DNA of 64,000 bases from Astropecten irregularis (lineage: Eukaryota > Echinodermata > Asteroidea > Paxillosida > Astropectinidae), in NCBI GenBank assembly GCA_963971285.1, contig OZ020247.1, forward strand, positions 10,188,614-10,252,613, read 5' to 3'. The translations under genes were made by a program, and so were the position numbers. Below, piece after piece: positions 3,701 to 64,000 of the stretch; the stretch's first letter is position 1; each line of letters begins with the position of its first letter. The notes under the pieces were generated by a model. It worked only from the letters and a program-made list of their open reading frames with translations. It was not told the DNA's origin and searched no databases.

Positions 3701-6700
3701 ACTATGCATTTTATGAATCTAAAACGCTGCTAGTACCGTCACAACTCTGATGTTGTGCGTGGAGTGCGCACGGTTTGCAAAGGTCATGTACATAGAAAAC
3801 ACATGCATGTGTATTGCAAAGAACTTTGTAAGAGTCCCTTGAGAAATTTTGAAGTAGGTCTAGACCTACTTCAAAATCTCTCAAGGATTCACCAGGGACG
3901 TCGGTCACTCTCAAGCATTGCTGTCCTTTCACATGATAACACTTTTGTAAGATTTCTACGTAGGGCTGCAATGCATCATTGTCCTACAATTGAAAATAAG
4001 TTACGATGAGTTCGGTGAAATCCACCCAAGTTTCTAAAACTAAGACCACAGACCTGAATCAGAATTCCAGCTGTATTCGCTGTTTGTTTTTTTAAATACC
4101 TTTTGGCTCCATGACGTCAGTTTCGGTAGTGCAGTCAAAACGATGCTGTCGGATGGATTCAATGTCATCCAGAAAATCCACCGTTTCCATTGGCGACCAG
4201 ATGGACTCCCCGTCTGTGAATCAACAATGCGCAATCATCAGGTACAACACACTCTTTCAAAATGAGTCATCAGTACAGTTTGAACGCCATAATACAGATA
4301 CTGACTGATTAATTAATCAGAGTCTTTGAGTGATGCCCAATATATACCGTTTCTCAGGTTTGCAGCATTGCTATTTAAAAATGTTACATGCATCTTATTA
4401 TGATCCTTGGAATATATGGGTATGTGAGTGGTTTTGTGGCTTTTGACTGCCAAATGAACAAAGATAATTGACTATTTGGGACAGCACCAACAAAGGGCTG
4501 GATAGCTCAGTTGTTAGAGCACCAATACTGTGTTCCAAGGATTGCAGGCTCGAATCCAGCTCCAGTCAAATTTTATTTTGTTCGCCTTCCTTGATTAAAA
4601 TTTCACAAGAATATTGCTTGTGCTTGTACTAGCCAATTTTTTCTTTTTTATTTAGTACTCTCTATCTAAAGGCTTTTCATACAATCTCATTTTCGATCCG
4701 TGGTAAAACTAATCCGGATCTGCCTCGGTTCAGCCTGGCAAGTTTTTCAACCGGATCGAAGAGACTCAATTTTCAAACAACGTTTTTAGTGAACCAGTTC
4801 ATACGACACAGATCACGGCGAAAAATGCAGTTTGGAACCGGGTTGAGATTTTCAACCCAGGTTTGATTTCGATCCAGCTAGGCTGTCCTACCCGGGTTGG
4901 CTCGGGGTTTAAAATGGATTGAAAAGTGTGAAAAGGATTTTAAAAGATCTCAGGGTTCGATCCGGTTCCAACCCCGAGATTTTGGATAGTGTGAAAAGCC
5001 CTTAAGACAACTTACAATTTTTCTTGGCTTGCAGTAAACTGATGAGATAGTTGCTGGTTTGTATCAAGAGGACATTGTTGTCGCCCTCGTAGGTGCAGTT
5101 AGGGTCATGGTCATTCCGAATCTCTCCCAGACCACTGGCTGAAAGACAGAAAAACAACCACATCACAGATCAAAATGATCAGATTCAATTCAAAGATATG
5201 AGCAGAGAGACCTCTAAATATCACAGGCTGTGGCTTACTCACCCCATAGGAAACCATGGCCTCCGCAAGCCTCTCTGCACTCCTGTATGGCATCACGGGC
5301 TGTCCACGTTGCCAGCGGCTTACCGGCACTGGAAAAGGCGTGAACCTCACGACTGAACTTGGCCTGTGGATCGGTCATAATTGATTGAAATGAATTTCCT
5401 TTCATCAAGATATAATTACACGCTATTAGGAACCTAATTTTGGTTACAGGGAACTTCTGCGAGGGAGGAACTTAATAAAGCATGTTGGATCAATTAAAAT
5501 AACCCCAAGACAATTGGCTAGGGACACCTAAGAAATGACCAAGTGCACTAAGGCAGTGAGTGACAAGTGGCACAAGGGCAATCAACTAAATGGCACAGAG
5601 GCAATGACCAAGTGCACTAAGGCAGTGAGTGACAAGTGGTACAAGGGCAATCAACTAAATGGCACAGAGGCAATGACGAGGGGCACTAAGGCAATGACCA
5701 AGGGCACTAAGGCAGTGAGTGATAAGTGGCACAAGGGCAATCAACTAAATGGCACCGAGGCAATGACCAGGGGCACTAAGGCAATGACCAAGGGCACTAA
5801 GGCAGTGAGTGACAAGTGGCACAAGGGCAATCAACTAAATGGCACAGAGGCAATGACGAGGGGCACTAAGGCAATGACCAAGTGCACTAAGGCAGTGAGT
5901 GATAAGTGGTACAAGGGCAATCAACTAAATGGCACAGAGGCAATGACGAGGGGCACTAAGGCAATGACCAAGGGCACTAAGGCAGTGAGTGATAAGTGGC
6001 ACAAGGGCAATCAACTAAATGGCACAGAGGCAATGACCAGGGACACTAAGGCAATGACCAAGGGCACTAAGGCAGTGAGTGATAAGTGGCACAAGGGCAA
6101 TCAACTAAATGGCACAGAGGCAATGACCAGGGGCACTAAGGCAATGACCAAGGGCACTAAGGCAGTGAGTGATAAGTGGTACAAGGGCAATCAACTAAAT
6201 GGCACAGAGGCAATGACCAGGGGCACTAAGGCAATGACCAAGGGCACTAAGGCAGTGAGTGACAAGTGGCACAAGGGCAATCAACTAAATGGCACAGAGG
6301 CAATGACCAGGGGCAATAAGGCAATGACCAAGTGCACTAAGGCAGTGAGTGACAAGTGGCACAAGGGCAATCAACTATTAAAATGGCACAGAGGCAATGA
6401 CCAGGGGCAATAAGGCAATGACCAAGTGCACTATTAAGGCAGTGAGTGACAAGTGGCACAAGGGCAATCAACTAAATGGCACAGAGGCAATGACCAGGGG
6501 TACTAAGGCAATGACCGAGGGCACTAAGGCAATGATCAGGGGCACCGAGGCAATCATGATTAGGAGCAACAAGGCAATGACTGCACCAAGTGACCATTAG
6601 TAACAGGGCAATCAACTAAAGGGCACTAAAGGCAATTACCAGGGGCACTAAAAAAATGACCACAGGTGCCAAGGCAATGACCAGGGGTGCGAAGGCAATA

Positions 6701-9700: not shown

Positions 9701-12700
9701 AGAGCTGGGCGTAGAGTAAGGCGTGGGTGGCAGTCTTCCCCATGCAGCCCACCCAGCATTTAGTTGCCTCCACATCCGGAGTGCTCAGCACAAACTCCTG
9801 GAAGACAAGAAAAACATCAAAGAACTTTGGAGAGTCTTTCAAATGTTGTCAAAATGATTTTTTATAACAGATTGAATGAATTCCACCTCATCTTATTGGC
9901 CTTAATCATGGCGCATCCATTTTGTCACCTTCATTGTATACCCTTTGGGAAAAGATAACACCAATTCTGAAAAGAAAACGAGTACCAGACTATTTTGAAT
10001 CCAAGCCTCGGTTTAATTTCACTGCTTCAAATGTAGGATGGATGCACCGTTAATAAGACCTATTCTCACCTATAAAGCATAACGTGTGAAATTGTTTCTA
10101 AAAAATAAAATAAACACCAAACAAAAACGATAATCTTTTTTCTTTATCTGAAACTTCGAAATGATAATGTAAAATGAAGAAAGGTAGGATTTGAAGCTTT
10201 GCATGGTGGAAGTAACATAAAAGAGTAGGTTTGCGGAGACAACATGTCAAATCTCTTTTATAGATGTGTGGTTCTGGTTCTGAAAAGAACCAGTGAGAAT
10301 AGTCTCGACATTCCGGCCAGTGTACTCTGGCCGTCCTCAAGAGAGTGAGTGAGCGAGTCATCACTCCCCTGAGGACACTGGCCGTCCTCACTCCCCTCAG
10401 GACGGCCAGAGTACACTGGCCGGAACGTCGAGACTATTTTCACTGGTTCTTTTCAGAACCACACATCTATAAAAGAGATTTCACATGGTGTCTCCGCAAG
10501 TTTACATTACGTGTACCTCCCATTAAAAGCCAACCCGAGTAAACTGGGTTTTACTCGGGTCGGGACGCATAAAATTCGAGTTGGAGGATTAAGGGGATTA
10601 AGATCGTTATCAGCACTAAACAAACAACGAGTTCCAGAGAGCCACTCTGCCTGAAAGTTGTGCCAGAAAATTTTGTTTTATAAAGTCGTAATTTCAGTTG
10701 ATATAAATGTGATGATCTTTGTTTTTGTGAAAGCGTTCTTCGATTATATTTTTGAACGGTGAAAATCGGTTAAGAAATGGCAGAGATCGAGAATTGTTCT
10801 TGCACTTGCAGAGATTTTTCACACTGACTCCGGAAATCATGTGTGCGTACTAATACCTGTCTCGTAGAATGGTTGTTTGGTCAGATAAAGTAGGCCCTGT
10901 GTTTGACGAAAATATGTGTACTCGTGTATTCTTCACATGTTTTTAAACACATTAAAGTAATAAAGTTAGTCGTTCATAATTTCGTACAATAAAAACCATT
11001 ATAAAACATTATATGACGTGCCGACCGCTCGCGCTGATTTCTCTCCGCCAAATAACCCCCTCAATGTCGGCACACAAAAAGTCACTTGGCCTGGCGGTGT
11101 TTATCATGCCGTGCTCTCTTTTTTTTAGTACACTGTACATGTTTATATCTTACTTCAGAAATAATCTGGAAACAATAACAACCATTAACATTTCTGATAC
11201 TAACTTCAAGACTTTCCGATAATTTCGCACGAACTGTCAAGTCTGCAACGAGGGCGACTCTATCGACCACTTGTAGATAAGTCACTCGGCCCTGCATGCA
11301 AACACGTGTTCTGAACTGCAATCGACCTTTGCTGCATGCGTTCTGCGCGCTTTCACATTTGTGAACAAATATCTGGTTACCCGTCTCCCGATCGACGCGA
11401 TCCATTTTAAACCGTTTCTTCCATAGAGCACCATGCTCAAATCTATCGATTTCGCACTTGTGATGAGGACAGCAATCTTGTTCGTCGTAGTTTCGCGAAA
11501 CTTCCTCACTTATTCTTTCCAAGATACAGTGTTTTGAATGAGGTTGCTTTATTCAAACTACACTTCGACGATTCCTCGTACATCCACAAAAACAGAAGAG
11601 GAAATTTTTGGACATTTTGAGGTACATATGCTTACATTAAAGGGAGGGTACAGAATTGGTAAGACAAAATACACTTCATAATCACAGATTCACATAAAAC
11701 TTACACAGTTTAATGGTGATGATAGGAGAAAACATCCCATGAAATGTTTTTGTCTGAAATGCCATATTCGTTGAGAAATAAATGAAACTATTTTCCGATT
11801 GGAATAAATCGCTTCGAAGCGTTTTATTCATTCGTTGAAATGTGTACAGTTCTCCGTACACGGGTTTTCACTATTTTCTCGTGACCCAGATGGCTGATTG
11901 ACCTCAAACTTCTACAGGTTTGTCAGTTAAGGTATATGATGGATTACATAATGTGCTTTCACTGTCAGCAACGGTTTTGTCGCAAACACCAGTTCTGTAC
12001 CATCCCTTTAAGTTGAGTTCGCGATTGCAACTGTTACCTTACCGCGATGTGTTGTGCGACGGCAGTGGGGCTAATGCTTCGTGTGGCCGGTCAACATACC
12101 GCGTGGACACGCTACCCACATTGTGTGCCGCAACGCACGGAAACTCAGTTGATAGTTAATCTCTATGCAAAAATGTTTCGTGTTCATCTGTTATGGATTG
12201 TTTTTCACTAAATTTTACTTGGAGTAGGCCCTAGTTGCAGAATACCCCGTCAGGGGCGGCCACTAAGCTTTTATTGCAAGTTTGCCATAACTTTTATTAT
12301 AAATGTAAACTTCTCTTTTGATTTTTCTGTGAAATTTAGTAGATGTCTATTCGAGTCTGTCCTAGTACTTTTCTTTACACTTACACTTACAGGAAGGCCA
12401 AAAATGTGCGTTTACATTATTTTATTCAAAATCTGTTTCTCAATGGTTTTAGGCTTACTTTTTTCGCTTTACCATAGACATATTTCTAGTAAATCAGCAA
12501 TAATTGAAAAAGCATAAAACTGAGGAATAAATTAATGTTTCCCTTAAAACACCAAAACAAAACACTTGAACTTTACAAATTTAAACCTCCCAGTTCAACA
12601 ACTGACAAATGTAAGGATGAGGAATAGTAGGTACTGATCAACTATTTGTAGGTTCTGTTTAGTCTTATTAAAATGTTCACAACCTTTGCTCTAAAAGGTC

Positions 12701-15700
12701 TGAGGAAATTTAGTGGACTTGACTTGTCTTGTCTTGGAATGGAATACAATATACATGTAGATTCAAAATTTTCTAGGACTTTATTTTTCAAAGTTCGAGA
12801 AATGCTCGCTCGTGTTGTGTGCTTTGAAACAAGCACTCCCTGTTTTTCGTTTTGCACTCCGGACCCACAGCTGAAGCCGAGCAGTAGAACATGACATTAT
12901 ACTATACATAACAGCATTACCTACATGATCTGATGACCAATGGGTAAAAGTAGTTCCAGTGCTAGTCAACTGTGAAGTCCACTTGCTTGGCCCATAGAAG
13001 ATTGTTTATTTAAGGGATTATCTCACCAGGCTACTGGTCAATCTGTTTACATAAGGGCTCCCCACTGTGTCTCAATTTTATGTGTGAAACTGGCCAAAGT
13101 TTTTAATGGAAGGTACACGTCATGCTCTATTAAAATGAAGAAATAATAATGTTGCTAATTAAATCAGGCATGCTGGGTTTTGTTTGATTGTTTGTTTGTT
13201 TTTTAAATAACACTGACCTCTGTTTCGGGATCGTATGTGGCAGTCGTCCGGACGGCTTTTGAGTTACTGCCATGTGAGAGTTCAGTCATTGAGAAGCATC
13301 CACAGAGCTACAGGTATAAACAGGACAACAATACAGTTACATTCTGTACTCACTCATGTCAAGATTACCTGCTCTAGTGAATGGGCCCTTCCGGCCTGTC
13401 AATCAAACTGTGCGCATTGACCAATTTGGAGGATACTTCGAACATTACCTCGGTCAAACTCGGTCATATGCTGTATGTAGAACACGTGGGATGTGGGTGG
13501 GTCTTAAGAGTAAAGCCAGAACAGTGCATTGTAGCTCTGAGGCTGATTTCAAGAATGCTTTACGATCATCGCTAAAGCCAAAATCCATCGGTAAACGGAG
13601 AATTGCTGATACCGATGATTTTTACATTGATGAGAAATTACCTCAAATCTGGCCGATTGGTCCCTGAACTTCAGATGACGTTCCGTACCGAGGGTCATGA
13701 CGGAGCCTCCAAACATCTGAAAAGCAAACCGTGAAGTTCAAATCAACTGGCTTCCAAAAAACACAACAGCAAAGGTGATAAAATGACCCATGAATGGTGA
13801 AGCAACTAAAGACAATAATTTACCAAAAGAGTAAGAAAGGGAAGTTTGCGGAGACAATGTATTTCTTTTCTAGACGTATGGTTCTGAAAAAGAACCGGTG
13901 AGAAATGGTCTTGACGTTTCGGCAAGTGTACTCTGGCTGTCCTCAAAGAACAATGACCAGAGGCCAATATCACAGCGCTGCTTAGCACAAAAATTTAGCA
14001 TGACATTTCTGTCTAAATAAAAACAGTCAATACAAGTAATAAACTGCTGCAAACTGCTCATCAGCCAAAATAATGACCTGAAATTTATAAAATGCTTGGA
14101 GTAATAGGAGGGCCTGACTCATTTCAATCCTTAGCCTTTGATAAAGATCCTGCTAGGATCGAAACGAGTCAGGCCCTCCTAACTCCAAGCATTTAATAAA
14201 AACAAGGTCAACAACTAAATGTCAATGTGTTGTGCATCACTTGTGATTGTTCTTTGGCTGTTGTTCACTGACTATGAATATCACATTTTTAACGTTGGTT
14301 TGTTTTGTTGGACAAGACATTTTCGTTCTATGCAAATTGTTGTGCTTAGCAGCTCCATGAAATTGCCCCCTGGTATTGCATTTTGGAATGGAACCAACAA
14401 TGAAGGAAGAAAAGGAAGGAAATTTGTGAGGCTAATCTTCCTTACTGGCAGCTGGGGTGCTGAATTGCGAAGAATGGGACTTCAACGGATCGAGTAGCAG
14501 GCTTTCATGGGCACCCTTGGCTGCCAGCCACATCAACCCATATATGATCGAACCCAGGCCACATTGGTGAGAGGTGAGTGCCTAAACGCACTTGCCACCT
14601 ATGCCCCCTATGGGGCCAATTTTACAGCCCTGCTTAATAGCACAAAATTTGCCAACCATGACATTTCTGTCTCAATAAAAACAGGATTAACAACCGAATT
14701 TCCAAGTTATGTATCACTTAGCGATTGTCCTTTGGCTGTTGTTCACTGACCATGAATATCAAATGGAATTGTTAATGGTTGTTTGTTTTATTGAGCAATA
14801 CAATTTGTGCTAAGCAATTTTTTGTGCTAAGCAATATTTTGTGCTTAGCAATTTTTTGTGCTAAGCATTTTTTTGTGCTAAGCAATTTTTTGTGCTTAAC
14901 AGCTCAATGAAATTGGCCCCAGATTAAACAGAATCTTTCTGTGAATCGCTAAGCTATTAAGGTGAAGTCATACAAAGCCAGAATCTTATCCTTAAGAGCG
15001 ACTGACCTGGTAATTCAGGATGTACTTGGCAGACAACGACCAGTTGTACATGCCCAGGCCGTTGATCATCCACTGCATGTTGTTGATCTGTTCCAGAAGC
15101 TTGTCCCATGGCATCAGGTTCATCTTCATCAGGTGGGCCAGCCGAGCCTGGGTAGCCTCTCGCTCATCGGCCATGGTGGCATCTGGAGAGATGTGCTGGA
15201 AGACTGGTTCCTTCTCCATCATGGCCCAGAGCTTGTGCTGGTTGAGGGTAGGGGTAGGAGTAGGAGTAAGGGTACAGTGGATCATGGTGGTAATCATTAG
15301 AGTTTACTATCATACTTTGGCCAAAGAAATGCAGATTCATGAGCAAAAATGTCAAGGCAGATACAGTAACATTCATCTGTGAAATTCCTAGTCCCATACG
15401 GCGCCCACTTTTTGAGAAAAAGGTGAAAAACAGCCACTGTATTTTAAAAAGCTTTTCACCATTATTTATGATCTTCCAAAGATCAAAATTGTTTTTGGTC
15501 ATTGATTTGACTCTTTTGCTGCATAAATACAGCATTTCAGGCAGAAAAATGTTAACGGTATGTTTCTACCATCATCATCTTTATAAGATTTATAGGTAAA
15601 TCTTCACAGATTTATCCAGCAAAAGAGTCAAATCAATGACCAAAAACAGTTTCGACCTTCGGAAGATCATAAATAACGGTGAAAAGATTGTTAAAATACC

Positions 15701-29500: not shown

Positions 29501-31724
29501 AACATCTTTAAAGGTAATATCATACTTGGTTTCTTGTCAAAAAATGCAGATTCATTGGCGAAAATATCAAAAAAGATATAGTACCAGTCATCTGTGAAAT
29601 TCTCAGTCCCACACAATACCCACCTTTTGAGAAAACAGTGAAAAATGCGCACGGTATTTGTAAAATCCTTTCACAGGATTTTTGATCTTCCGAAGATAAA
29701 ATTGTTTTTGGCCAATTGGTTTTACTCTTTTCTGGATAAATACAACATTTCAGGCAGAAAAATATTAACGGTATGTTTCTACCATCACCATCTTTATACC
29801 CTGTAAGTTATAGGTAAATCTGTGAAGATTTCTGTTTCGGTATGCTACCAAAGTATGATAGTACCTTTAAATTTGAAATAAATCTATCTGCTATCTATTA
29901 ATCTAGCTCTTTCTTTAGCGAGATGATTTTTAGAGGTCGGTCATTGCTTGCTTTGCAGACGGCTTCAGACAAGGTTCTCTTTGCTCAGCCAGATGAGACT
30001 GGCATCACGGACTGGGTAAGTTGAGGTAGACATCTCATTCTTCGTTTACGTCTCAGGAATAAAATATACTCCTTTGAGCTTCTTATTCAAAATTTGCATT
30101 GGATGGAAAATTTTAAATGGTGGCCAATTATTCAAATGATTCTTTGCAATTTTCAACATGTACTCCATTTTTCTATAAGTCTTGTCTTTTCCATCAGAAG
30201 CCGTATTTGTCTCCGAATGTTTGCCAAAAATGGAATTTTTGACAGGTTTTTTTTCAAATTTTGTTTGTATTTTTCTTTTGAGTTTTTTTTATGTGGAACA
30301 AAGAAAATTAACTGGAGCGTGATTTGAACCTGTGACCATCAGAATACCGTACCAATATTCTCCCAACTTTGCTATCCATCATTATGTTAGTGGTGTCCCA
30401 AATAATCAATTATCTTAGTTCATTTGCCAGTCAGAAGCCATGAAACCATTTATTCCTCTTTTAATGAAAAGTCAAAATGGAAGAACTTATTGCATAAGGT
30501 GTAGCCATGGTATAAACACAAGTCTGGTTTCCATCCTCCATGCAGGAATATGATGTGCTACTGAGAGGCAGAACATTGGAGAACCTGGCTACTGCACGGT
30601 CTACACTAGTGTCCTTGGCCCAGCTGTTGAACCAGATTAGTAATATTGTAATCCGCGATGACATAGCCGATCAGGTAATTAAGTGTAGCCTACTTCCAAT
30701 TGTCTTGTAATGTGAAATATTTTCAATCGGCCCCAGGTCTACCAAAGTTTGGATGCCCGATAGAAAGGGGCAACAACATTAGAGTTGGCAATCTAAAACA
30801 GGACTTTCTGTAACATCAAGGAGGTCCACGACTTCAGACTGAGCCTCCTCTATAAACCTCCCTTCCCCTTTCCTTTTGATTAACTAGGTCTACCAGGCTG
30901 TGTCAGCCATCAAGCAAGGCCATAAATACCTCAGGGACGGCAACCTGTACAGGGCCTTCCACGACAGCAAGAGAGCAATCGCTGCATCCGAGAAAGCCTT
31001 CTTCGATCCGTCCCTCTTGGAGCTACTCTACTTCCCGGACGATCAGAAGTAAGTACAACATCCTCCGACTGCTTCTAGACCCCATCCTTCCTCTGCGTTA
31101 GTTTCCTAAGAGCCAAAGACAAACAGTAGTGATTCGTTAGGTTTATCGGAGAGACAAGAGTTGTTGACTCTGATCGGCAAGGGATAGAATAAGATTGAGG
31201 TGTTGTTTCATCTTTAAGATACTTGGTAGCTGTATAAACTTAAAATGATTTTAGAAGTAAAAGAGGATGAGCATCTCTTTAATTGACCGATTTGGTACGT
31301 TGAGATATTCAGTCAATAAGTTGTTTTTTATGTGGATCGGTTTGCGGAACCACCATGTAAGAATCGTTCGTACTTTTTGCGCTTCTTATTTCGTTCGCAC
31401 TTCTCGTAAAGTCTCAACATTTTCGACTAGCCTGCTCTAGTCATCATAATGGTCTCTTGATGATGACTAGAGCAGGCTAGTCGAAATAGAAGTGCGAAAG
31501 TATGAACGATTCTTACATGGCGTTTTTGCAAACCGATCCACATACCAATTGTCACCATGCAAAGCTTTAAAAAAAATTGTTTTGATTATTTCTTTCTCGT
31601 TATTTTATCCTGCAGATTTGCCATCTACATTCCTTTGTTTCTACCCGTTGGTATACCAGTGTTGAGTTCATTCTACAAGGCTGTGAAATGGATGAGGACG
31701 AAAAGAAAAACAAAACAGGACTGA
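20548..31724 (+). CDS. PIGS: GPI transamidase subunit PIG-S (14 coding exons, 545 aa, complete)
   Basis: PIG-S is a subunit of the ER-membrane GPI transamidase (with PIGK, GPAA1, PIGT, PIGU) that swaps a C-terminal signal for a GPI anchor. Exons: 20548-20587, 21361-21503, 22202-22304, 22941-23036, 23565-23705, 24411-24505, 26465-26585, 26980-27156, 27665-27754, 28855-29030, 29959-30015, 30546-30674, 30888-31048, 31616-31724. They total 1638 nt and all phases agree. A hydrophobic segment at residues 20-40 is followed by TYRASLPY (44-51), a signature of the family. Later matches are [48 protein letters not shown] and [18 protein letters not shown] second hydrophobic segment (511-532) and a basic tail end the protein: the usual two-TM topology with a large lumenal domain. 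Human PIGS is 555 residues. Introns 5 and 6 hold tandem arrays. Confidence 0.94.
20840..21139 (+). mobile_element. MITE with GAATTCCACTGACGG ends, copy 1 (PIG-S intron 1)
   Basis: AGGAAAGAATTCCACTGACGG at the left and GGCCGTCAGTAGAATTCTTTCC at the right. The interior shares TATTTCCTCCAAGA and GTGAGATTTTCAG with 52607-52857 in reverse. Confidence 0.8.
21535..21810 (+). mobile_element. Element with GAGCCG-hexamer inverted ends, copy 2
   Basis: The left end carries at least five CTCCGG-type hexamers; the interior and the GAGCTGGAGCCAGAGC right end match the other copies. PIG-S intron 2. Confidence 0.75.
23061..23434 (-). mobile_element. TTAA superfamily MITE, type 1
   Basis: TTAAAGGTAATATCATACCT to CAAAGTATGATACTACCTTTA in PIG-S intron 4. 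Confidence 0.8.
23806..24330 (+). repeat. 65-bp tandem array in PIG-S intron 5
   Basis: About eight units at a 65-bp period (TGTACC at 23861, 23926, 23991, 24056, 24121, 24186, 24251). Inner units read GGTTCCCATCCCACC, while both outer units read GGTTCGAATCCCAC, which is a tRNA B box and T-arm. Each unit can fold as GGTG..CCTGGT / ACCAGG..CACC. Confidence 0.9.
24510..26340 (-). repeat. About 108-bp tandem array in PIG-S intron 6 (tRNA A-box unit)
   Basis: Seventeen units, each carrying on the minus strand GGATAGCTCAGATGGTAGAG, a tRNA D-arm/A-box, plus the leader seen in the SINE at 4440-4573 (GACTGGCACC, AGCAAAGATAGTTGACTAT). No B box is present in the units. The array starts within 5 bp of the exon 6 donor at 24505. 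A six-unit block repeats at about 655 bp. Confidence 0.92.
26625..26941 (+). mobile_element. TTAA superfamily MITE, type 1, left end missing
   Basis: Ends AAAGTATGATATTACCTTTAA at 26941, 39 bp from PIG-S exon 8. The left inverted end is absent. Confidence 0.7.
27227..27445 (+). mobile_element. GGGGCCAATTT-type MITE, right end truncated
   Basis: Starts CTCCAATTTTACAGCCCTGC and shares TTCTTTGGCTGTTGTTC; the right inverted end is lost. PIG-S intron 8. Confidence 0.65.
29191..29511 (+). mobile_element. TTAA superfamily MITE, type 2
   Basis: TTAAAGGTACAGGATTGG onward. The right end is fused at TTTAA with the next element. Confidence 0.75.
29508..29870 (-). mobile_element. TTAA superfamily MITE, type 1, sharing TTAA with its neighbour
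   Basis: TTAAAGGTAATATCATACTT to AAAGTATGATAGTACCTTTAA. Tandem insertion of type 2 and type 1 with one TTAA between them; PIG-S intron 10. Confidence 0.8.
30305..30450 (-). mobile_element. tRNA-derived SINE, degraded
   Basis: Minus strand has GGTCACAGGTTCAAATCACG (B box) and the leader ATAATTGATTATTTGGGACA; the A box is damaged. PIG-S intron 11. Confidence 0.65.
31320..31572. mobile_element. Related palindromic repeat without the histone stem-loop
   Basis: Inverted arms with TGATGACTAGAGCAGGCTAG followed by TCGAAA, and a tail ending CACCATGCAAAGCTTTAAA. Same core and tail as the histone-stem-loop copies, but GGYYCTTTTCAGRRCC is replaced by other sequence. It lies in PIG-S intron 13. Confidence 0.65.
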
Positions 31725-46000: not shown

Positions 46001-49000
46001 CAAATGAGCGGCCAATTTCATTTTCATGCATTCGTGTTGAAGTGATTTTGCCTTTCCGGTTGAAACTGTCACTCGATTTCACAGAAATGCTAACAGATTT
46101 ACCTATAACTTAAAGGGTATAATGGTGATTGTAGAAACATACCGTTCAAATTTTTCTGCTTGAAAATGGTGTATTTATCAAGAACAAAGTAAAACGAGTG
46201 ATCAAAAATAAAAGAGAAAAGACTCAAGAAATACTGTGCCTGTTTTTCACTGTTTTCTCAAAAAGTGGGCACCGTATGTGACTGACATTTTCACAGATGA
46301 CTGTTGCTGCATCTTCCTTGATAATTTTGCCCATAAATCTGTATTTGACAAAAACCAAAGTATGATACTACCTTTATGCATTCAACAGTCGTTCAGTTTG
46401 GCCATGCAAAATCAGCATTGAATATACCACGCTGCCAAAAGCCATTACGAATATGAATGCTGTTCGAATGGAATTTGATATTGAAAGGCGATTCTTTTCA
46501 TTCGCCTGACGCTTGTTTACATTTGCTTGCACATGAAGTGAAATCGAATGGCTATATTTTGAGGTGCCTTGCAGTTTCACGCAAAATGGGATGGCACAGC
46601 GTTTAAATTGTCCACTCGTGTGCCGAAAATGACCGGTAAAACCTATATTAGGAATTAAAGTCTGGTACCGCGAACCAACAACAAGGATGCACTGTTCATA
46701 TCAGGGACATGGGTTCAGAATTCTTTAAAAAAAACCAAAGTCTGGTGCCCTGTCTTCATTGATGCACATTGCCACAATACATGTATTTCATTTTTCTGAT
46801 ATTATGCATATACCGGTAATTTCTTTCATGTGCAAACTTGACTTGATCTCAAGAATTGGCACAGAAAAAAACAATGACAAACTTTTCCGAGACTTCACTA
46901 CAAAAACTTCAATTTTATTGGATTTTTCTTTTTATCTACTCTAAAATTTGAAAACACCTCAAATGCAATTTTGCAAACGATTATAAATGAAGCAATAGGT
47001 TTGGGGTAACACCATGTGACGAAGATTTATGCTGGAGCATTCTTCCGAAGATGGCCATAGAATACTGACCAGAACGTCGCGCTAACCGGCTCTTTTCAGA
47101 GCCACCCCATACTCACAAAAGAGATAGATATAAGTCGCAAAGTGTTACTGCAAACCTATTACTTTATGTACTTCCACCATGCATAACCTCAAATCTAAGT
47201 TAATTATATAAAATGACAAATATTCTTTAATTTCTACCGCCTCACAGCAAGTCAAGTTACTCATTGGTTGTCCTATTTCCAAAATATTTGTCAAACATGC
47301 ATCAGTGACAGAATCATTATTTTGGGTGGGAGAATTATCTTCTTCGACTTACCCTTTTATGGCATTTTCTGACGATGGCTTCTGAAAAGTTGCCAACGAC
47401 TGTAATATCTTCTCTCTTATACTTCACAATCATCTCCAATACCTGAAATAAACACCACAACCAGCCAAAAACCAATCAGAATATCAGGTTACACTATATA
47501 TGAATAAATTGAATTAACATATATGTATATGCTGACTGGCTATACAAGTACAAGTAACACATACGCACTTTTGTCATGAATATGCAAATATGGATATGTA
47601 AAGTATGCAAATTACATAGCCCTGTGCCAATGGAGCATGATGCTTTCAATTCTGAATGAACAGTTTTTTGCTGATTGGTCATGTGACTTGTATGCAAATG
47701 AGACATTCATATACGAATAAAAGGTATTAATATCGACAGCCTAATAAAATAATTAAAAGTCATTTTGACCAAATTCAGATATTTTGCTTAAATCAGATCT
47801 TTATCATAGGAGCTACCCTATGGATGAAGTGTCCAGGTTTTTAGACATTTGTGTTGTTTTTCTCAAAAGTAGCAAGAATTACTTAGGCAATTAGGCTGGC
47901 AATATGCAAATGACATGGCGTAAGCAAATAATGCATTCATATGCAAATGAGGTATTGTTGTTTACCTTGTCAATAAGCTCATCATCATTCCTCTTGATGT
48001 CTAGGTTGATCGGAACGTTGGGAAATTTCTCAAACACTTCCTGTAGCAGAGGTATCTTTCTGTCAGAGGTACTCCCGCACACACTGTGACCTTTTGCCAT
48101 ACAAGAGAGAACAGATCCGATAAAGTACATTGCCAAATCATTAGGTAAACAACAACAAACAAACAAATAAACAAACAAACAGATGCACCAACAAAAACAA
48201 ATAAATCCACATGCACAAGGCATTACACTTAAGGCCTTTTCACACAACGCTAAGAAAACTCTCAACCATTGAGAAATGTTCTCATAGTTGCAAAATCTTA
48301 CAAAACGGTGTTACTCTGGCCGCTTTTGCATTCTTTCACACGGCACAGTGTATAATAATAATAATTTGGGAGGCTAATCATCCTTACTCGCAGGTGGGGT
48401 GCTGAATTGTGAAGGATGCGACTTCAACGTGATTGGGTAGCAGGCTTTCATGGCCGCCATTGGCTCAGGCTGCCATGATCACAGAGTACAGCCTGAGATC
48501 TTTTCTGGATAAATACACCATTTCTGGCAGAAATATTTTAACGGTATATTTCCAACAGCAACATCTTCAAACCTTAAAAGTAATATGTAAATCTGTGGAC
48601 ATTTCTGTTTGGGTATGTTACCAATCCTGCACTGTACCTTTAAGGGTTTGATAGGAAGTAAGCAATACAAGTAAAACTAATGGAAAGAATTGCAGGAACA
48701 CAAATTTACATTAATTGTATTCCCTTCTGGAAGCTTACCTTTGCAAAAATGCACAGCTAATGTCTGAGAGAGAAGGGGTAAATCCTAAAAAGACAAAACA
48801 AAACACCAAAGAAAAAAAAGTAATTCCGCATTTCTGTTTAAGTTGCAGGGTGTGCAAAACATTTCACAAATGTATACAAATGTCACATCCAAATCAGGCA
48901 GAGAATGATTAGAATGCAATAACGCAGGCCCTAGTTAAGTGGGCCCCCGACCCCACGCAGTGAGCTTCAGAATGTGTACAAACTCAGCTAATTCCATGTA

Positions 49001-62549: not shown

Positions 62550-64000
<1,451 letters not shown>

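Follow-up and report, generated by a model that had tools for sequence, protein, structure and literature searches.

Why should a histone mRNA 3′-end signal recur in DNA that has no histone gene beside it? The window, the whole 64,000-nt stretch of Astropecten irregularis DNA analysed here, contains five short hairpins that the initial annotation had read as the stem-loop of replication-dependent histone mRNA, spread by a mobile repeat. In animals, this stem-loop and its downstream element are otherwise used to finish tail-less histone messages. The locus therefore raises the question of what carries the signal, where it came from and whether it is used.

Histone-type stem-loops in the window

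All five hairpins are present with the positions and sequences first described: GGTTCT-TTTC-AGAACC at 10276–10291 (−) and 10445–10460 (+), GGCTCT-TTTC-AGAGCC at 47088–47103 (+), GGTCCT-TTTC-AGGACC at 63127–63142 (−) and GGTTCT-TTTTC-AGAACC at 13880–13896 (−). The TTTC loop is kept in four of the five, as had been claimed, the exception being the five-base TTTTC loop of the 13880 copy. The same copy is the exception 3′ of the stem, where it has AAAAGAAAT and the other four have AAAAGAG on the same strand. The gap between stem and AAAAGAG is 10, 12 and 13 nt in three copies; at 10276 a GGTTCT duplication in the spacer lengthens it to 16 nt. Allowing up to three mismatches, the motif occurs 10 times in the window (four exact), against a mean of 4.07 and a largest value of 9 in shuffled sequence, none of 100 shuffles reaching 10. 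With the Rfam Histone3 model (RF00032, cut-off 34 bits), one of the five copies scores above the cut-off and the 63127 copy falls short by 0.3 bit. The features are as follows.

10190–10500, no strand assigned: inverted (foldback) non-autonomous element, GGTTCT subfamily (inverted repeats I6 and I11; tail/extension matches)
10253–10259, −: HDE-like AAAAGAG, left arm (sequence)
10276–10291, −: histone-type stem-loop GGTTCTTTTCAGAACC, left arm (sequence; Rfam Histone3 25.2 bits, below cut-off)
10304–10341, −: hammerhead-like hairpin, left arm (probe match)
10396–10432, +: hammerhead-like hairpin, right arm, GGACGGCCAG..CTGGCCGGAACGTC^GAG (probe match; RNA fold)
10445–10460, +: histone-type stem-loop, right arm (sequence; 32.4 bits, below cut-off)
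10471–10477, +: HDE-like AAAAGAG, right arm (sequence)
13880–13896, −: decayed copy, 5-base loop, AAAAGAAAT downstream (20.6 bits, below cut-off)
31329–31544, no strand assigned: comparison inverted element with a similar terminus, CATGGTGGTTCCGCAAACC (inverted repeat I12)
46984–47200, no strand assigned: GGCTCT-subfamily element (inverted repeat I14; tail/extension matches)
47045–47081, +: hammerhead-like hairpin, diverged (7 mismatches to probe)
47088–47103, +: histone-type stem-loop GGCTCTTTTCAGAGCC (40.3 bits, E 2.2e-8, above cut-off)
47117–47123, +: HDE-like AAAAGAG (sequence)
63108–63114, −: HDE-like AAAAGAG (sequence)
63127–63142, −: histone-type stem-loop GGTCCTTTTCAGGACC (33.7 bits, just under cut-off)
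63157–63193, −: hammerhead-like hairpin CTGAGGACGACTAG..CTAGTCGAAACGTCGAG (0 mismatches to probe)

The 10276 and 10445 stem-loops, which the first reading had not connected, are the two arms of a single inverted element, in which a Penelope 3′ terminus ends each arm and both stem-loops point outward. The element at 46984–47200 has a degenerate left arm and a long tail on the right arm, and the fold of its hammerhead-like hairpin is absent from the single-sequence RNA prediction. The comparison element at 31329–31544 has a related hairpin and lacks the histone stem-loop, and is a further relative. At the window copies no target-site duplication was recognised and no ORF was found, and their Penelope membership rests on their ends. 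The earlier statement that no histone gene is near also holds among the core-histone matches listed (all but a few of 151 in the genome, most of them on contig C18): none is inside the window, and none places a histone ORF directly upstream of a window stem-loop.

Further palindromic elements, with ends resembling AGTTAGGAGGGCCTGACTCGTTTCGATCCT, lie at 14086–14198 and 144–261, the former resembling the MIR405 hairpin family below the Rfam cut-off. A long open frame of near-identical repeats at 5532–6413 is most likely a minisatellite.

The carrier element and its terminal repeat

Judged by its coding capacity, the hairpin carrier is a Penelope-like retroelement (RT plus GIY-YIG), which bears out the claim of a mobile repeat and sharpens it. 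Between outward-pointing stem-loops, locus L010 holds two inverted copies of part of the ORF with Penelope-type RT and GIY-YIG (PF01541, 5.5e-6), and L009 holds one decayed copy. L082 has a 717-aa open frame (RT PF00078, 5.7e-10); the loop of this copy, one of the best with an open frame, is two T longer, and its score is only 23.9 bits. At least 122 Penelope protein matches are present in the assembly. Just upstream of the Penelope insertion in L082, positions 116–235 of that locus match U5 snRNA (90.6 bits).

The terminal repeat comprises, in order, the ORF stop, a TATA-like box, a hammerhead-like hairpin, the stem-loop, AAAAGAG, the RT-start tail and the ATG of the next ORF. The stem begins 230–271 nt after the stop in four GGTTCT copies and ~97 and ~108 nt after it in two GGTCCT copies, distances longer than the 24–28 nt of the three histone genes measured. 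The hammerhead-like hairpin lies in the intervening stretch, together with the TATA-like box in five of six copies with the stem-loop that were compared; 3′ of the stem-loop come AAAAGAG, then CATGGTGTYWCCGCAAACC, then the tail. In a copy on contig C27 (L130), the stem-loop and AAAAGAG lie upstream of the ORF, which begins MQSFK and has its ATG in CCACCATGCAAAGC, 64 nt past the stem. The GGTCCT-type copy L132 has its stem-loop cut off, starts MQNFKPYLSSLYGE at the corresponding ATG and begins MQNFK. The reading frame of L130 is open through the stem-loop, which may be translated there. Coding constraint is an unlikely cause of stem conservation elsewhere: in the one frame worked by hand the stem changes would be nonsynonymous, and L132 has an in-frame stop overlapping the AAAAGAG box, upstream of the ATG.

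The insertions have two further Penelope traits, a one-sided tail of roughly 30–40 nt and target duplications of 13–14 bp, which inspection by eye showed in L009, L010, L019 and the C27 copy. In L010, an insertion end lacking the tail is found 110 nt downstream of where stem II starts (counted by eye). For the Anolis element PAc, PMC11167929 gives an RT start at 111–118 nt and an optional tail of 30–40 nt. RT and GIY-YIG in one ORF, a repeat with a hammerhead-like motif near the ORF start, the optional 30–40-nt tail and an insertion end at ~110 nt are shared with Penelope/Poseidon elements such as PAc. The difference here is that the histone stem-loop and AAAAGAG separate the hammerhead-like hairpin from the RT-start region; the main text on PAc does not contain the word histone. 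Among the top-ranked open-access matches, which did not include two primary Penelope-hammerhead papers, no paper joins a transposon or Penelope with the histone stem-loop, and none in the open-access literature searched was found to treat Penelope together with SLBP. One early idea, suggested by L130, was that cDNA 5′ ends lie at the hammerhead cut; it was dropped, as breakpoints are scattered in the 37 tail-selected copies described below.

The minimal type I hammerhead core comprises CUGANGA, a strong stem II, GAA and GUC, with no helix III. A second Penelope family, with a protein 38% identical and frames open up to 884 aa, has a canonical-looking minimal hammerhead, CTGATGA..GAAACGTC, in the matching position, and no histone stem-loop in the stretches read. 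The core is CUGAUGA..GAAACGUC in the stem-loop-less family (L085–L087, L128) and approximate in the stem-loop families. Relative to the minimal type I hammerheads of Penelope-like elements (reviewed in PMC7761336 and PMC6155905), CUGANGA, strong stem II, GAA, GUC and the missing helix III are alike, whereas the stem-loop families depart, on our own reading, at G12 or A15.1 according to subfamily. Rfam hammerhead models gave no match in the window or the loci scanned. The histone signal may have taken over from a weakening hammerhead, one whose core is non-canonical in the stem-loop families.

AATAAA is present in all three copies without the stem-loop that were compared (L085–L087), where it is a putative poly(A) signal, given that it overlaps the TATA-like box. 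In the stretch compared it occurs in none of six stem-loop copies (L009, L010, L074, L082, L083 and L084), one of which has ATTAAA overlapping the AAAAGAG box. With one family having the stem-loop and its relatives lacking it, the signal was either gained in, or lost from, one branch.

Stem pairing, conservation and the host histone genes

The exact motif with the following AC has 1822 matches (865 + 957) in the 475.7-Mb assembly, a count that takes in the host histone genes (large arrays on C18), so that the repeats alone are fewer; the reversed pattern has none. Exact stem-loop copies in the retroelement family probably number more than a thousand. When the genome was scored with Rfam Histone3, the 75 best of 91,728 candidates all passed (75/75), most of them in the C18 histone array.

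Both variable stem pairs are Watson–Crick in 93 of the first 100 places listed among the exact matches, all on contig C1, compared with 33 expected if the arms were independent. By stem type these places are TT/AA (42), CT/AG (29), TC/GA (20) and CC/GG (2), with a mismatched pair in 7; genes, not repeats, account for both CC/GG places and for two or more of the CT/AG ones. From 66 stem-loop copies with up to three mismatches, we aligned the 42 that have the hammerhead-like hairpin and tail. The stem-loop helix is 97.2% paired in this alignment, most of whose loci were fetched through an exact motif match or a best Rfam score, a choice that favours intact loops and does not force the arms to agree. 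At pair 3, 24 copies have UA and 16 CG; at pair 4, 32 have UA and 8 CG. Two copies are unpaired at each position, and G–U occurs at neither. The covariation check proposed with the initial annotation thus upholds its compensating stem changes, with three subfamilies (GGTTCT, GGTCCT and GGCTCT) differing by paired changes. The traits of RF00032 are seen here, namely six paired bases, a four-base loop and pairing maintained through two-sided changes. When the majority sequences of the three subfamilies (14, 16 and 7 copies) are aligned, the linker and spacer differ and are gapped, while stem pairing, loop and AAAAGAG persist.

To lessen this bias, we searched with 64 nt of the tail that follows the motif and fetched 37 of the 40 best-scoring places. 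The three left out (two in L020 and L077, and one other listed place) all have an exact stem-loop, so their omission does not flatter the count. The stem-loop is spanned by 27 of the 37 copies, exactly in 19 and with the stem, loop or both changed in eight, and the remaining ten break off within the stem-loop or 3′ of it. Measured against the subfamily sequence, the copies diverge by 2.2% (11/491) in the stem-loop, 3.3% (12/367) in the linker upstream of the stem, 3.7% (8/214) in AAAGAG, 6.6% (46/699) in the hammerhead-like part, 11.9% (26/218) just 3′ of AAAGAG and 14.5% (52/359) in the spacer between stem-loop and AAAGAG. These figures are little changed when L114, which has an inner inversion, is removed. 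Within the young GGTTCT subfamily, the stem-loop is not clearly better conserved than the upstream linker. Neutral decay of the stem had been named as the outcome that would speak against a signal in use, and on this point the copies do not decide: most of them are probably dead on arrival, and some have changed stems. The relevant point is that every amplified lineage retained the signal.

The repeats agree with the host H1, H3 and H2B genes in loop and AAAAGAG, and their spacing is similar; this match to the host's own downstream element strengthens the histone-type identity first assigned to the signal. In the H1-type array on C18 (PF00538, 5.8e-22), GGCTCTTTTCAGAGCC lies 28 nt past the stop and is followed by ACATATATTCAAAAAAGAGATT. 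A core-histone array spans ~15.63–16.05 Mb of the same contig, where the canonical stem-loop with AAAAGAG follows the stop by 26 nt at one H3 3′ end and by 24 nt at one H2B 3′ end (H3, H2B and H2A were identified by eye from protein ends). The one H2A end read (L127, C18:15637500-15637740) has an aberrant stem-loop, GGCTCTAACGGAGCC, and a normal downstream AAAAAAGAG. From AACC through the stem-loop to ACCCCA, the H2B end and the GGCTCT subfamily are identical letter for letter. A host histone gene is probably the source of the signal; among the histone ends read, that of H2B comes closest, and its identity to the repeat suggests that it was the source. The SLBP RNA-binding domain is encoded in two exons on C18. 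U7 snRNA was found neither with the Rfam model nor with a sequence pattern, a weak negative given the prokaryotic controls of the Rfam search.

Proposed use of the signal and other genes that end in it

Set against the 3′ end of replication-dependent histone mRNA, the repeats have the same six-bp stem (GGYYCT/AGRRCC), TTTC loop and ACA/ACC flank, and the same AAAAGAG starting ~9–13 nt past the stem, as in host H1, H3 and H2B. They differ in that the signal is on a retroelement, ~97–271 nt after the stop compared with 24–28 nt, and is also found upstream of an ORF. We consider it reasonably probable that the element carries a complete histone 3′-end signal and uses it to make poly(A)-free mRNA, the window repeats being mostly non-autonomous, inverted or truncated copies of a Penelope-like 3′ terminus. 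Of the original suggestion that a mobile element uses or imitates the histone pathway, the presence of the signal on a mobile repeat stands; its use for 3′ ends in place of poly(A) fits, and is something we strongly infer from the signals themselves.

For such use, RNA reading through the terminal repeat would be bound by SLBP at the stem-loop and by the U7 snRNP at AAAAGAG, and cleavage a few bases past the stem would yield a non-polyadenylated element mRNA, with a histone-like expression in S phase and the early embryo. Genomic copies extend past the stem-loop and AAAAGAG into the tail, so the RNA that is reverse-transcribed must be the uncleaved form; cleaved RNA would then be the mRNA, and uncleaved read-through RNA the template. 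Because the stem-loop is also in the 5′ UTR of the ORF, cleavage there would be harmful unless suppressed, and the signal would need to be ignored near the promoter. By analogy, LTR elements likewise have their poly(A) signal in each of the two repeats. A retroposed histone mRNA was rejected as the origin of the repeats, as AAAAGAG and the tail lie beyond the presumed cleavage site.

Alternatively, the signal may have been captured and repurposed, serving as a structured 5′ UTR or as RT-template RNA and not in 3′-end cleavage; either SLBP or a protein of the element itself would then bind it, for translation or for packaging. This we regard as unlikely, although it would account for the long stop-to-stem distance and for the position in L130, 64 nt before the ATG and between the hammerhead-like hairpin and the RT-start tail, which corresponds to the part of the Anolis element close to where protein binds and RT starts (PMC11167929). 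The loop and the ACA/ACC flank nevertheless remain histone-like. Moreover, AAAAGAG, which is not known to matter except for U7, persists in three subfamilies in which the spacer varies.

Less probable again is a functionless passenger, in which a single histone 3′ end was captured and the subfamilies reflect the amplification of a few source copies. That the linker and spacer differ among three subfamilies in which the stem pairing, loop and AAAAGAG persist argues against a passenger, as do stems that differ through paired changes. However, these paired changes amount to few separate events (at least two) among the subfamilies, and the eight inexact copies of 27 in the tail-selected sample and a linker nearly as conserved in the young subfamily also fit this account.

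A DNA-level palindrome, such as a DNA transposase end site or cruciform with a chance likeness to histone ends, would suit elements that resemble foldback MITEs with arms inverted outward, and the 11 outward pairs within 3 kb among the first 100 listed places, each of the same stem type (one further pair is inward, of different types, and one same-direction), but is very improbable given the one-sided tail and target duplications, the loop, flank and AAAAGAG that match host histone genes, and the internal Penelope RT and GIY-YIG, whose presence between the stem-loops of L009 and L010 led us to drop a palindromic MITE.

Returning to a signal used for poly(A)-free mRNA, we give about even weight to the broader proposal that a clade of retrotransposons captured it and makes RNA without poly(A) through SLBP and U7, tied to replication, and that unrelated multicopy genes do likewise. 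If true, selfish DNA would be exploiting the histone 3′ end as a terminator that works without poly(A), is of general use and can be transferred, and a transposon would be shown coupling itself to S phase. The family offers many natural variants for testing SLBP and U7 requirements, and it is relevant to those processing motifs of Penelope repeats that lack an explanation: hammerhead-like and histone-type cleavage sites adjoin.

Among other genes, a small family with 15 matches has the stem-loop and purine box at four of the six 3′ ends read, 28–52 nt after the stop: L026 (C1:11.07 Mb), L073 (C1:8.57 Mb), L135 (C17:6.91 Mb) and L136 (C1:22.61 Mb). The two other ends read, L134 and L137, have no stem-loop and purine box. 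The stems show a paired difference, being GGCCCT/AGGGCC in L026 and, with its first base changed, in L135, and GGCTCT/AGAGCC in L073 and L136. To the eye the members resemble transposases, a reading that Pfam does not confirm, giving just a sub-threshold zinc finger.

At L072 (C14:14722500-14724800), GGCTCTTTTCAGAGCC and AAAAAAGAGAGA come after what looks like a broken Tigger-like copy. Its DDE_1 match (PF03184, 4.4e-6) and the ORF whose end lies 27 nt upstream of the stem-loop are read in different, overlapping frames, which makes the link of the signal to this copy uncertain. At L081 and L025 (C1:8366500-8372000), GGCCCTTTTCAGGGCC and AAAAAAGAGATT follow ~19 nt after the end of an ORF or last exon.
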